Positions 21,639-61,509 of a stretch of DNA of 64,000 nucleotides are shown here, in pieces. Made by a program: the position numbers and the translations under genes. The notes beneath the pieces were generated by a model that worked only from the letters and a program-made list of their open reading frames with translations, had not been told where the DNA came from and ran no database searches. Positions within the stretch are counted from its first letter, which is position 1. The number at the start of each line of letters is the position of its first letter. The stretch is from Roseibium aestuarii (lineage in GTDB: Bacteria > Pseudomonadota > Alphaproteobacteria > Rhizobiales > Stappiaceae): assembly GCF_008477545.1 (NCBI RefSeq), contig NZ_VORA01000005.1, positions 1-64,000 of the forward strand, read 5' to 3'.

Positions 21639-21654
21639 TTAATGTGTCCTTAAC
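21639..21654 (+). promoter_or_regulatory. CtrA-type box upstream of the tol-pal operon
   Basis: TTAA (21639-21642), seven bases, then TTAAC (21650-21654) match the full CtrA consensus TTAA-N7-TTAAC. It lies 220 bases before tolQ in the 335-base ybgC-tolQ gap (21540-21874), which otherwise holds no gene. CtrA is encoded in this window. Confidence 0.65.
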
Positions 21655-25416: not shown

Positions 25417-25500
25417 AACCGGGGCGTTTAAGCTCCGGTTAACCCTGTTTGCCAATCAGGCATTAACCAGCTTCCTATAGGATCTGTTCACCTTGAACAG
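25417..25500 (+). promoter_or_regulatory. tolB-pal spacer with two dyads
   Basis: A 9-bp stem with one wobble (25417-25425 with 25432-25440) lacks a T-tract and may be a weak terminator or processing site after tolB. A second dyad, CTGTTCA-CCT-TGAACAG (25484-25500), lies 25 bases before pal. Two TTAAC motifs (25439 and 25463) lie between, 24 bases apart, which is not the CtrA spacing. Pal may have an extra promoter here. Confidence 0.4.
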
Positions 25501-30848: not shown

Positions 30849-32192
30849 ATGCGCAAGTTCTTCGGAACCGACGGCATCAGAGGCCGTGCCAACACCCCGC
30901 CCATGACCGCCGAACTGGCCCTCAAGGTGGGCATGGCTGCCGGCCTGTCCTTCAAGAATGGCGGTCACCGTCACCGGGTGGTGATCGGCAAGGACACGCG
31001 CCTGTCCGGCTACATGCTGGAAAATGCGCTGGTCGCCGGGTTCACCTCGGTGGGGATGGATGTCTTCCTGCTCGGCCCGATGCCGACGCCGTCGGTCGCC
31101 ATGCTGACCCGCTCGCTTCGGGCGGATCTCGGCGTCATGATTTCCGCCAGCCACAATCCCTTCTATGACAACGGCATCAAGTTCTTCGGGCCGGACGGGT
31201 TCAAGCTCAGCGATGCGATCGAGCTGGAAATCGAGAGCCTGCTGGAAAGCGATCTCGCGCCGCGGCTTGCCGCCTCCCAGGAGCTGGGTCGGGCCAAGCG
31301 CATCGAAGGTGCTCAGCAGCGCTACATCGAATTCGCCAAGCGCACCCTGCCGCGCGAAATGAGCCTCGAAGGCCTGCGGGTCGTGCTCGATTGCGCCAAT
31401 GGCGCGGCCTACAAGGTGGCGCCGGAGGCCCTGTGGGAACTCGGCGCCGATGTGGTGACCATGGGCGTCACCCCGGACGGGTTCAACATCAACAAGGATT
31501 GCGGTTCGACCGCGCCGGAAGCCCTGTCGCGCAAGGTGCATGAAGTGCGCGCCGACATCGGCATCGCGCTGGACGGGGATGCGGATCGGGTCATCATCGT
31601 CGACGAGAACGGTCAGGTGATTGATGGCGACCAGCTCATGGCCGTCGTCGCCCAGTCCTGGCAGTCCGCCGGGCGCCTGTCCCAGCCGGGCATCGTCGCC
31701 ACCGTCATGTCGAACCTCGGGCTCGAGCGCTACCTTGGCGATCTCGGCCTGTCGCTGGCCCGCACCAAGGTGGGCGACCGCTATGTGGTCGAGCACATGC
31801 GCAGCCACGGCTTCAACGTGGGCGGCGAGCAGTCCGGCCACATCGTCCTGTCCGATTTCGCGACCACGGGTGACGGGCTGATCGCGGCCCTGCAGGTGCT
31901 GGCTTGCGTCAAGGACCAGAACCGTCCGGTGTCCGAGGTCTGCCGCCGCTTCGATCCGGTGCCGCAGCTCCTGAAGAACGTGCGCTACGCGGGCGGTTCG
32001 CCGCTCGAAACCCAGCCGGTGAAGGAAGCGATCCGGGAAGGGGAGGACCGTCTGGGCACCTCCGGTCGTCTGGTCATCCGGGCGTCGGGCACGGAGCCGC
32101 TGATCCGCGTCATGGCCGAAGGGGACGATGAGACCCTGGTGCACAAGGTGGTCAACGACATCGCCGAAGTGGTCGCACGCTCCGCTGCGTGA
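30849..32192 (+). CDS. glmM: Phosphoglucosamine mutase
   Basis: The 447-residue protein begins [11 protein letters not shown] and has the catalytic phosphoserine motif [15 protein letters not shown] (Ser near 100), the metal loop [16 protein letters not shown] and the phosphate-binding [12 protein letters not shown]. It converts glucosamine-6-phosphate to glucosamine-1-phosphate for UDP-GlcNAc. The gene following ftsH is a common bacterial arrangement. Confidence 0.97.
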
Positions 32193-32222
32193 AATCCTCG
32201 CCTTCCTCTTGGAAATTTCAGT

Positions 32223-32267
32223 CTCCCGCCTGTCGTCTTGCAAAATGACAGGCGGGAGTTCTTTTTT
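32223..32267 (+). terminator. Intrinsic terminator of glmM
   Basis: A perfect 12-bp stem (32223-32234 with 32247-32258) is followed by TTCTTTTTT. Confidence 0.95.
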
Positions 32268-32286
32268 GTTAATTTTGGATTTACCT

Positions 32287-32302
32287 TTAACTCTTCATTA
32301 AC
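32287..32302 (+). promoter_or_regulatory. CtrA-type box upstream of the outer-membrane protein gene
   Basis: TTAA (32287-32290), N7, TTAAC (32298-32302): a perfect match to the CtrA consensus, within a very AT-rich promoter region (32260-32350). Confidence 0.7.
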
Positions 32303-32329
32303 GTAAAAAATCTCGGTTAAGAAATACGG

Positions 32330-32344
32330 TTAAGTCGAGATTAA
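32330..32344 (+). promoter_or_regulatory. Second CtrA-type box upstream of the outer-membrane protein gene
   Basis: TTAA (32330-32333), N7, TTAA (32341-32344). A further TTAA lies 13 bases before it (32317). Two correctly spaced boxes in one promoter make CtrA control likely. Confidence 0.6.
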
Positions 32345-32422
32345 TTATTTTTGACCATGGTGATCTCATCTCAATCGAGGCTGCGATGTCTTGCGCGGGC
32401 CTTTTTCATTAGGGACGAGGAC

Positions 32423-33223
32423 ATGGGACAATTCTTCAAGCGCCTGTCGATGGCTGTCGTCGCCGTTGCCTGCGCGACCTCCGCATTTGCTGCCGACCTG
32501 CCTGAGCCGGTCATCGAACATGTTCCGCAGATCCCGGCCGTGGGCGGCTGGTACCTGCGCGGCGACATCGGCTACAAGGTCTATGGTGATCCGTCGGGCA
32601 GCTTCCGCGATGGGGTCATCGGTGACCTGCGCTATGTGCGCGAGAGCATGGACGATGCGGTGAACATCGGCGTCGGTGTCGGCTACCGCTTCAACGAGTA
32701 TTTCCGCTCCGATCTGACGGTTGACTACGAGACCCCGTCGAGCGCCAAGGGTTATGCCTTCTGCGGGCTCTGCACGGGTAACCTGTCGACCGAAGGTGCG
32801 GATATCGACGTCTGGACCGTGATGTTCAACGGCTACGTCGATCTGGGCACCTGGTACAACATCACGCCTTATGTCGGTGCCGGTATCGGTGCTTCCTATG
32901 TGCGTGCCTCCAACGCCTATTCGATCAACCCGGGTTCCACCGGCACGGTCAACTACTCCGGCACCAACGGTGAGTGGAACCTGGCCTGGGCGCTCATGGC
33001 CGGTGCGGCCTATGACATCAACCCGAACTGGACCATCGACGCGGGCTATCAGTACCGCAATCTCGGCATGGCCAAGACCGTGCGTCACACGGGCGTCGGC
33101 ACCGGCGGAACCCGCGCGAAGTGGGACGATCTGGTGGCCCACGAGGTTCGTCTCGGCCTGCGCTACAACTTCGGCGGTGCGCCGGTCTATTACGCGCCGC
33201 AGGCGATCAGCAGCAATTTCTGA
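32423..33223 (+). CDS. Outer-membrane beta-barrel protein (Omp25-like family)
   Basis: The protein has 266 residues from the ATG at 32423, preceded by AGGGACGAGG. A signal peptide (1-23, ending SAFA) leads into alternating strands with many aromatic residues, typical of an eight-stranded barrel: GWYLRGDIGYKVYG, VNIGVGVGYRFNEYFRSDLTVDYE, YVDLGTWYNITPYVGAGIGASYV and the C-terminal EVRLGLRYNFGG. Such proteins stabilise the outer membrane in Hyphomicrobiales. The promoter carries two CtrA-type boxes. The two cysteines in FCGLC are unusual in this class. Confidence 0.85.
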   Translation: MGQFFKRLSMAVVAVACATSAFAADLPEPVIEHVPQIPAVGGWYLRGDIGYKVYGDPSGSFRDGVIGDLRYVRESMDDAVNIGVGVGYRFNEYFRSDLTVDYETPSSAKGYAFCGLCTGNLSTEGADIDVWTVMFNGYVDLGTWYNITPYVGAGIGASYVRASNAYSINPGSTGTVNYSGTNGEWNLAWALMAGAAYDINPNWTIDAGYQYRNLGMAKTVRHTGVGTGGTRAKWDDLVAHEVRLGLRYNFGGAPVYYAPQAISSNF

Positions 33224-33250
33224 TCCGCATCCCCGCGGAGATGCTCGAAG

Positions 33251-33279
33251 AAGGCCGGCCTTGCGCCGGCCTTTTTTGT
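33251..33279 (+). terminator. Intrinsic terminator of the outer-membrane protein gene
   Basis: A perfect 9-bp stem (33251-33259 with 33265-33273) is followed by TTTTG. Confidence 0.92.
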
Positions 33280-33294
33280 GCTGGGGGACAATGT

Positions 33295-33389
33295 TCCCGT
33301 GTTCGTGGCCGGGTTGGCGGTGTTCGGCCATTGACGGCGGCACGGGAGGGGAATATCGGGATCAGGGTCCGTGGCAACGGACCCTTTTT
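33295..33389 (+). promoter_or_regulatory. Candidate serC leader with terminator-like hairpin
   Basis: Just before serC lies a perfect 8-bp hairpin (33365-33372 with 33377-33384, GGCA loop) followed by five T, 20 bases from the start codon. Upstream, CCCGTG (33296-33301) can pair with CACGGG (33341-33346) around an inner TGGCC/GGCCA stem. A serC RNA motif with a terminator-like hairpin is known in Alphaproteobacteria; assignment to that family is inference. Confidence 0.5.
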
Positions 33390-33409
33390 GCGTCTTCAAG
33401 GGGTAATCG

Positions 33410-34582
33410 ATGACCGCCGCTTGCACCAAGCCTTCCCTTCGTCCCGCCAACCCGAACTTCTCGTCCGGCCCCTGCTCCAAGCGTCCGGGCTGGTCTCTGG
33501 AGGCGCTGGCGGATGCGCCGCTCGGCCGGTCCCATCGGGCCCCGGTCGGCAAGGTGAAGCTGGAAGAGGCGATCAACCGGACCCGTGAGGTGCTTCAGGT
33601 GCCGTCCGATTATCGCATCGGCATCGTGCCCGCTTCGGACACCGGCGCGGTGGAGATGGCCCTGTGGTCGCTGTTGGGCGCGCGCCCGGTCGACATGGTC
33701 GCCTGGGAGAGTTTCGGCGCGACCTGGGTTTCCGATGTCCTGTCCCAGCTGAGGCTGGATGGCACCCGCCGGATCGAGGCTCCCTATGGTGAGCTGCCGG
33801 ATCTCGGCCAGATCGATTTCTCCCATGACGTGGTCTTCACCTGGAACGGCACGACCTCGGGCGTGCGCGTGCCGAATGGCGACTGGATCCCGGCGGACCG
33901 GGACGGCCTGACCATCTGCGATGCGACCTCTGCCGCCTTCGCGCAGGATCTCGCCTTCGAAAAGCTCGATGTGGTGACCTTCTCCTGGCAGAAGGCGCTT
34001 GGCGGGGAGGCGGCTCACGGCATGCTGATCCTGAGCCCGCGTGCGGTCGAGCGTCTGGAGAGCTACAAGCCGGCCTGGCCGATGCCGAAGATCTTCCGCC
34101 TGACCAAGGGCGGCAAGCTGATCGAGGGCATCTTCGAGGGCGAAACTATCAACACGCCCTCCATGCTCTGCGTGGAGGACTATCTCGATGCGCTGAAGTG
34201 GGCGCAGGAGATCGGTGGCCTCAAGGCCCTGTGCGGCCGGGCAGACGCTAACCTCGCCATCATTTCCGACTGGGTCGTCAGCCGCGACTGGATCGAGTTC
34301 CTGGCGGTCGATCCGGCCACCCGGTCGAACACTTCGGTCTGCCTGCGGGTGGTGGATCCGGCGATCACGGCTCTCGACGAGAAGGCCCAGGCAGGCTTTG
34401 CCAAGCGCATGGCCGCCCTCCTCGACAAGGAAGGCGTTGCCCATGACATCGGCAGCTACCGGGATGCGCCGGCGGGTCTGCGGATCTGGACCGGGGCCAC
34501 GGTTCAGGCGGCCGATGTGGAAGCCCTCATGCCCTGGCTCGACTGGGCCTATGCGGAGGCGCGCAACGGCCTCGGTCTCTGA
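33410..34582 (+). CDS. serC: Phosphoserine aminotransferase
   Basis: The 390-residue PLP enzyme belongs to the SerC subgroup of Rhizobium and Methanosarcina type: [13 protein letters not shown] at the N-terminus, [26 protein letters not shown] and the PLP lysine in [10 protein letters not shown]. It converts 3-phosphohydroxypyruvate to phosphoserine. serA, its usual neighbour, does not follow here; a dispersed repeat and a minus-strand gene come next. Confidence 0.95.
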
Positions 34583-60441: not shown

Positions 60442-61134
60442 TCAGGCCGCGGCTTCGATTTCCGGTTCGCGCAGCACGTAGCCGCGGCCCCAGACGGTCT
60501 CGATGTAGTTCTTGCCCGACGTGGCGGCTGCCAGCTTCTTGCGCAGCTTGCAGATGAACACGTCGATGATCTTCAGTTCCGGCTCGTCCATGCCACCGTA
60601 GAGGTGGTTCAGGAACATTTCCTTCGTCAGGGTCGTGCCCTTGCGCAGGGAAAGGAGCTCCAGCATCTGGTACTCCTTGCCGGTCAGGTGCACGCGCTGG
60701 CCACCGACCTCGACGGTCTTGGTGTCCAGGTTGACCTTCAGGTCTCCGGTCACGATGACGGACTGGGCATGACCCTTGGAGCGGCGCACGATCGCATGGA
60801 TGCGGGCCACCAGCTCGTCCTTGTGGAACGGCTTGGTCATGTAGTCGTCGGCGCCGAAGCCCAGGCCGCGAACCTTGTCCTCGATGCCGGCGTTGCCGGA
60901 GAGGATCAGGATCGGCGTCTTGACCTTGGAAACTCGGAGTGTGCGCAGAACCTCATACCCGGACATGTCCGGCAGGTTGAGGTCCAGCATAATGATGTCA
61001 TAATCGTACAGCTTGCCGAGGTCGATGCCTTCCTCGCCAAGATCTGTCGTGTAGACGTTGAAATTCTCAGACTTCAGCATCAGCTCAATGCTTTGTGCTG
61101 TAGCGCTGTCATCCTCAATCAACAATACACGCAT
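60442..61134 (-). CDS. ctrA: Cell-cycle master regulator CtrA
   Basis: From the ATG at 61134 the protein has 230 residues: receiver domain ([17 protein letters not shown], phospho-acceptor Asp51, Lys in MTKPF) and a winged-helix OmpR-type DNA-binding domain (about 125-225, [27 protein letters not shown]). The C-terminus EAAA resembles the ClpXP-recognised tail of Caulobacter CtrA. It binds TTAA-N7-TTAA boxes to control cell-cycle, flagellar and envelope genes. A CtrA box lies in its own promoter region. Confidence 0.97.
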
Positions 61135-61509
61135 GCCAATCCCCTTGTGTTGCCTTTCCTGGGCAAGTCGCAACGGCTGTTGTCGGTGCCTGCTACGAAG
61201 GACTGCCTTAACCCCGACTCAAAGCTAATTGAGTTATGGTTAACAAAATCTAATCCGTAGCGGCAAGCTCTCTGTTAACGAATCTGTGCACAAGCACTAA
61301 CCCACTGAGACATAGGCAAAAACTGCCTATCTAGCGAGTTAAGGCTCCACTTTAAGAAGCCCCGTTAAGTGACTCCTTTCAGATTCGTTTTCAAAAAGCC
61401 GTTGTCGACCCTTCAAAGGCTCTCGCCTGTCAACGATCCCTTCATTAAGATTAAGCAGAGATGTAAACGATCGGTTACCAACGTGGCGAAACTGAGCGGA
61501 GAATTTTAG
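61135..61509. promoter_or_regulatory. ctrA/fliI divergent control region
   Basis: These 375 bases are AT-rich and carry four GANTC methylation sites (61216, 61280, 61371, 61382) and many TTAA motifs. Three of the latter lie at exact 13-base spacing (61339, 61352, 61365). They diverge to ctrA (minus) and fliI (plus). No coding frame is supported. Confidence 0.6.
61229..61244 (-). promoter_or_regulatory. CtrA-type box in the ctrA-fliI intergenic region
   Basis: TTGA (61229-61232), N7, TTAAC (61240-61244): one mismatch to the consensus, about 95 bases before the ctrA start. The matching sequence is on the plus strand. It suggests autoregulation. Confidence 0.55.

Follow-up and report, generated by a model that had tools for sequence, protein, structure and literature searches.

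The consensus reported for CtrA is TTAA-N7-TTAAC (PMC7200025), and in Brucella abortus this regulator has been described as binding upstream of omp25 and of other outer membrane protein (OMP) genes, and as affecting OMP levels (Francis et al. 2017, as cited in PMC10538546, PMC10787603 and PMC6607954). The Hyphomicrobiales, the order to which Brucella belongs, are stated to lack Lpp (PMC10787603), and beta-barrels of the order with a mature Ala-Asp N-terminus are reported to be linked to peptidoglycan (PMC12729407, PMC10787603). CtrA motifs have furthermore been predicted at LD-transpeptidase genes of Agrobacterium (PMC11527210). Here we describe a conserved outer-membrane barrel gene of the same order whose promoter, judging by its sequence, is very probably controlled by CtrA. 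Whereas CtrA control of OMPs is already known from Brucella, what is new is the fixed three-half-site promoter of a barrel OMP.

The window (i.e. the whole stretch of 64,000 nucleotides of Roseibium aestuarii DNA that was analysed) carries at 32423-33223 (+) an outer-membrane beta-barrel gene (OMP_b-brl, 266 aa). That this gene is real, as the preliminary description had assumed, is borne out by its ATG at 32423, a stop codon ending at 33223, a match to PF13505 (E 9.1e-18) and a modelled eight-strand barrel. Its upstream neighbour is glmM (phosphoglucosamine mutase type, Pfam PGM_PMM I-IV, 30849-32192, +), which ends 230 bp before the barrel ATG and stands beside the barrel gene in most of the 30 loci fetched from relatives. 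A terminator-like hairpin with a T-run (32223-32268, +; stem of 14 pairs at 32223-32258, then TTCTTTTTTG), recognised by consensus match only, may separate glmM from the barrel promoter. Downstream of it lie TTAACTCTTCATTAAC (TTAA-N7-TTAAC, 32287-32302), TTAAGTCGAGATTAA (an exact TTAA-N7-TTAA, 32330-32344) and single TTAA copies at 32269 and 32317; re-reading of the sequence returned precisely the coordinates first given for these boxes and extra copies. The copy at 32269-32272 (+) falls, on our reading of the sequence, right behind the terminator and outside the conserved array. Six of the 37 TTAA of the window are found within 80 bp at this promoter, which makes it the densest spot (the second being the region upstream of ctrA). 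Because both the number of exact boxes and the TTAA density point to the same place, the promoter retains the rank of strongest CtrA-type signal in the window that it had been assigned.

The array consists of a distal CtrA-type box (TTAA-N7-TTAAC, 32287-32302, +), a middle half-site GGTTAA (32315-32320, −; TTAACC on the lower strand) and a proximal CtrA-type box GGTTAA-N7-TTAA (32328-32344, −; TTAA-N7-TTAACC on the lower strand). The unit that is conserved reads GGTTAA-N7-GGTTAA-N7-TTAA. The base 5' of the proximal box is a G in 74/74 orthologues and the base 3' is a C in only 27, and given this invariant preceding G the canonical TTAA-N7-TTAAC sits on the lower strand. The GGTTAA at 32315 provides one more TTAACC, running in the same direction as the inverted proximal box. 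Counting from the start of the box over 75 promoters (the window plus the 74 exact-box orthologues), an A occupies +27 in 74 and a T occupies +31 in 63. Since these columns correspond to the second and sixth bases of a -10 element, they place a putative -35 (32333-32338, +) inside the proximal box, separated by a 17-nt spacer from a candidate -10 hexamer, CATGGT (32356-32361, +). The conserved columns are thus consistent with a box that lies at the -35 with the -10 downstream of it, and transcription would be expected to start near 32368.

As the proximal box is inverted with respect to the written consensus, activation is uncertain, and CtrA could bind here and mainly repress, or gate the promoter both ways, as at pilA of Caulobacter. 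We judge this unlikely: the presence of several sites and the inversion of the proximal box in 74/74 orthologues would agree with it, as would the report that at pilA activity is driven by the -35 site and lowered by sites 2-4 upstream of it (PMC11264516), but a box on the putative -35 with a conserved -10 occupies the position described there as usual for activation by CtrA in Caulobacter. Box orientation varies among the other exact boxes of the genome, and therefore orientation leaves the sign of regulation unsettled.

Between the promoter and the coding sequence, a purine-rich, ribosome-binding stretch (GGGACGAGG, 32412-32420, +) precedes the ATG, and a similar stretch is present in relatives. 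An in-frame ATG at 32357, overlapping the putative -10, was rejected as start codon because the signal peptide starts at 32423. No consensus pairs indicative of a structured 5' UTR were found in 17 sequences. A search of 32150-33450 against Rfam gave three matches, all under the gathering score; one of them, 3' of the barrel gene (33223-33382), is an end-to-end match to the Caulobacter sRNA family CC3513, sub-threshold at 24.9 of 40 bits (E 0.047). GANTC, the CcrM/GcrA motif, occurs within 150 bp of the start in 17/81 promoters and is unconserved, on which count control by CcrM/GcrA was rejected.

Conservation was assessed starting from the protein, using the best 80 of 527 relatives confirmed by an alignment-based genome scan (a redundant set, with many Roseibium). 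The exact box lies no more than 300 bp from the chosen start in 74/80 orthologues, and the triple TTAA-N9-TTAA-N7-TTAA is found in 60/80 (both numbers are unchanged at 400 bp), or in 75/80 if up to one mismatch is allowed; in 200 shuffles the corresponding means were 0.86 (N7) and 0.015 (triple). Among all gaps from 0 to 20, N7 was recovered in 74 orthologues, N9 in 65 of the 80 (proximal box to middle half-site), N20 in 60 (between half-sites 1 and 3) and N15 in 36 (between the distal box and the middle half-site), every remaining gap occurring in at most 6 of 80. The GG pair ahead of the middle half-site accompanies the triple in 54 of its 60 loci, and a second exact box is found in 22/80 named orthologues. 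The exact box is missing from six orthologues, five of Pseudovibrio and one of Microvirga. The array retains its spacing, its orientation and the -10 in loci of Roseibium, Stappia, Kaistia, Pleomorphomonas, Mesorhizobium and Brucella; Rhizobium and Agrobacterium retain it as well, but there the middle half-site differs by a single base. In a separate comparison of 41 genomes, 38 were matched and 30 loci fetched, of which 29 carried the triple and all 30 the box. Within the own genus the triple was present in 25/25 genomes.

Among 25 representatives (picked by hand, approximately one per genus, so that the box columns are 100% identical by selection), pairwise identity reached 80% in the middle TTAA and 81% in the two GG pairs, as against 33% in the box spacer and 31% in the other 119 columns. 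These values bear on the idea that the cluster is mere AT-rich DNA, acting as an UP-type element or as a site for the silencer MucR in place of CtrA. It is an AT-rich stretch in a window of approximately 59-69% GC, and the MucR of alphaproteobacteria has been likened to H-NS (PMC10746212, PMC12548446). Loose AT-richness would nevertheless not be expected to bring with it fixed spacings, a flanking G that never changes and spacers that behave neutrally, and we consider this explanation very improbable.

We also searched from the DNA pattern. The triple was found in 213/297 genomes of the order, a figure to which AT-rich families add many chance matches. The more demanding GGTTAA-N8-GTTAA-N7-TTAA was found in 98/297 genomes, the reversed control yielding 5 sites in 4 genomes (counted by eye). 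A sample of 289 genomes taken across the class (4 of them, including our own, belonging to the order) gave 6 with a match to the GG-led array; the 5/285 found outside the order, compared with 4 control sites, correspond to background level, and a barrel gene was downstream in 0/5 of these loci. Within the order, a barrel homologue followed on the same strand in 21/30 loci of the triple search and in 24/30 of the GG-led search (in each case the first 30 loci returned, a non-random draw). The barrel match began 58-96 bp past the array in 22 of the 24, and 174 and 332 bp past it in the other two. The 9/30 and 6/30 loci without a barrel homologue included, in the GG-led search, six that all came from one family (f44). 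Five genomes of that family (L251 and L253-L256) share a different, near-identical array, GGTTAATCAAGAT-GTTAACAAA-TTAA, with no barrel downstream. Array and barrel occurred together in eleven families (f1, f11, f13, f14, f16, f18, f28, f29, f42, f6 and f44). In one of these (f28, L241-L248), a second barrel-profile match lies approximately 0.8-1.2 kb further downstream, with the look of a tandem duplication, although in L247 it may be no more than a second match in the same frame.

At the scale of the genome (4,350,289 bases), exact TTAA-N7-TTAA occurs at 34 sites, compared with 15 for the reversed pattern; a single exact site therefore need not carry meaning, and by this control half of them could be due to chance. 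Four exact sites fall in the window, and none in 100 dinucleotide shuffles of it. Among the 34 sites, only those at the barrel promoter and at fliF include two boxes within 60 bp, and the triple occurs twice in the genome (at the barrel gene and at C11:680583), only once with a leading GG. A profile built from 29 promoters scored 38.7 bits at the barrel gene, a value that follows from its construction (the window is one of the 29 sequences). The runner-up in the genome, at 16.9 bits, is an exact box ahead of an LD-transpeptidase gene (L184:2030, G000:C11:373529).

Thirty of the 34 exact sites lie outside called ORFs. Each of the 30 sites beyond the window was taken with its flanking sequence, and 36 neighbouring ORFs (from crude ORF calls) were scanned against Pfam. 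The matches included GcrA, a sigma-70 factor of the rpoD type, FliF (with two overlapping boxes), two flagellins, a type IV leader peptidase, three GGDEF/EAL proteins, PAS_5, DUF2336, a chemotaxis protein, an ABC ATPase that is FtsE-like by eye, a class A penicillin-binding protein, an LD-transpeptidase and an outer membrane efflux protein. Several of these types are classical CtrA targets. Neighbours without an obvious link included an acetyltransferase, FGase, an aminotransferase, BLUF, a sugar transferase and a zinc ribbon; 12/36 ORFs were without a Pfam match, and at two sites (L159, L176) no gene was convincing.

Within the window, the exact boxes other than those of the barrel gene neighbour genes for TolQ-type and Pal-type proteins: TTAATGTGTCCTTAAC (21639-21654, +) lies 222 bp ahead of the tolQ-type gene and TTAAGCTCCGGTTAAC (25428-25443, +) ahead of the pal-type gene. 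A wider regulon, with CtrA driving the barrel, Tol-Pal and LD-transpeptidase genes as a set of envelope tethers, was considered and rejected. The pal box was exact in 3/28 scored loci (30 fetched, 2 without anchor), with one mismatch in 18 more, mostly at a like position; the LD-transpeptidase box, which belongs to the one gene with an exact box among the 12 YkuD genes matched in the genome, was exact in 2/29 (30 fetched, 1 without anchor), with one mismatch in 9 more, at scattered places. This poor conservation weakens the case for a conserved tether regulon and, by contrast, sets the barrel array apart as unusual. It speaks in addition against the view that the barrel pattern arose by chance or simply through shared ancestry of the intergenic region, as the pal and LD-transpeptidase boxes were mostly lost or blurred in much the same genomes and the columns surrounding the array are only 31% identical among the representatives. 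The redundancy of the orthologue set, and the fact that the identity of the GG pairs and box columns was partly selected for, would lean the other way; with the exact box in 74/80 orthologues and the triple in 60/80, the array is not a product of chance, and we regard this explanation as extremely improbable.

The presumed regulator is encoded in the window itself. A ctrA gene (230 aa, 60442-61134, −), assigned by NCBIfam NF045991 (CtrA, 425.1 bits for a cut-off of 350), lies approximately 28 kb from the barrel promoter, and its product matches PDB 4qpj, with a chain named CtrA. Its own upstream region (61211-61368, −) contains several TTAA, including TTAA-N9-TTAA-N9-TTAA at 61368-61339, and the ctrA promoter may use a half-site spacing like that of the barrel array, the N9 gap being common to both.

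An alternative occupant of the array would be a different response regulator of the OmpR family (CenR, ChvI/BvrR or a further one). Regulators of this type bind direct repeats, and the genome has 11 Trans_reg_C matches. BvrR is reported to bind near Brucella omp25 (PMC10538546). However, the CenR motif given for R. sphaeroides, TGA-N8-TGA (PMC9275681), was found in 1/81 promoters and is absent from the promoter of the window (its reverse form, TCA-N8-TCA, in 9/81), and the inverted repeat related to CenK-CenR in S. meliloti (PMC9561847) in 0/81, while TTAA-N7-TTAA was present in 73/81 over the same 160 bp. Judged by these CenR-type motifs, a different regulator of this family is, in our estimation, improbable.

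The barrel protein itself gave weak PDB matches (NspA, OpA60). AlphaFold2 modelling on 22 sequences (pLDDT 82.6) placed a signal helix at residues 2-24, then a low-confidence stretch to approximately residue 41 and eight main strands, and Foldseek matches of the model include OmpA, NspA, OprG and OmpW types; together with PF13505, the model predicts an outer-membrane beta-barrel fold. A23, A24 and D25 are invariant in sets of 10 and 22 proteins, and this conservation places the predicted mature N-terminus after AFA, at Ala24-Asp25 (codons 32492-32497, +). A signal peptide followed by Ala-Asp was recognised in 79/80 orthologues, the exception (L143) beginning with MAAD because its start had been chosen too late. 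By analogy with the barrels of the order, LD-transpeptidases probably attach the protein to peptidoglycan through this Ala-Asp N-terminus. The surface protein had also been called abundant, a qualification that codon use leaves without support, as at least 13/55 likely coding ORFs of the window exceed its codon adaptation index (CAI) of 0.582.

We infer from the spacing and orientation of the sites, conserved in many families, the box over the putative -35, the presence of ctrA and the motif targets across the genome that CtrA controls the barrel promoter; this part of the preliminary description has strong support from the sequence, and the abundance it implied finds none in codon use. Absent from that description were the middle half-site as a member of a fixed array, the inversion of the proximal box, the conservation across the order, the Ala-Asp N-terminus and the ctrA gene in the window. 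In such a scheme, phosphorylated CtrA would bind the proximal box (32330-32344), covering the -35, assisted by the adjacent half-site at 32317 and, in this genome and some of its relatives, by another full box at 32287. Read most simply, CtrA would activate the promoter by aiding RNA polymerase at the -35, and the upstream sites might sharpen or delay the response, or stabilise or gate binding. The barrel would then be exported, fold into eight strands and be tethered to peptidoglycan by its Ala-Asp N-terminus. The promoter thus read suggests that barrel synthesis is tied to the cell cycle, and with it the synthesis of an envelope tether.

In its widest form, this reading makes the inverted three-half-site CtrA array an order-level switch of the Hyphomicrobiales that ties the synthesis of a peptidoglycan-anchoring barrel to the cell cycle, a possibility that we put forward tentatively and stop short of calling probable. 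If it holds, new outer membrane would be fastened to new wall during growth and division, and few CtrA promoters would be as strictly conserved as this one. That the array was kept where the pal and LD-transpeptidase boxes were lost or blurred suggests that selection maintains a link between the cell-cycle circuit and outer-membrane construction, for which the barrel promoter offers a simple reporter and mutation target.

No paper returned by the literature searches describes this promoter array in its title or displayed abstract (a supplementary ChIP-seq table may already contain the gene), and the main text of the S. meliloti CtrA paper (PMC4433202) makes no mention of the outer membrane, omp or ropB. 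Agrobacterium offers a likeness in that a CtrA link to the connection between outer membrane and peptidoglycan has been suggested there through the LD-transpeptidases (PMC11527210); those sites are motif predictions, and the LD-transpeptidase box seen here was exact in only 2/29 loci. With the Ala-Asp barrels of the Hyphomicrobiales (Godessart et al. 2021, as cited in PMC12729407 and PMC10787603) our protein shares the barrel and the predicted mature Ala-Asp; theirs are described as covalently linked, whereas a linkage of ours is suggested by the motif. Brucella abortus, of the same order, resembles our locus in having OMP genes with a CtrA site upstream, but at omp25 CtrA was placed at -389 to -337, whereas here 78 bp separate the box from the ATG, and it falls over the putative -35 and within an array of three half-sites. 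For the mechanism, the closest worked example is pilA of Caulobacter, which has four CtrA sites, one over the -35 and the others upstream (PMC11264516). The pilA sites are reported as off-consensus and irregularly spaced, whereas the barrel array serves a different type of gene and keeps a fixed spacing over many families.
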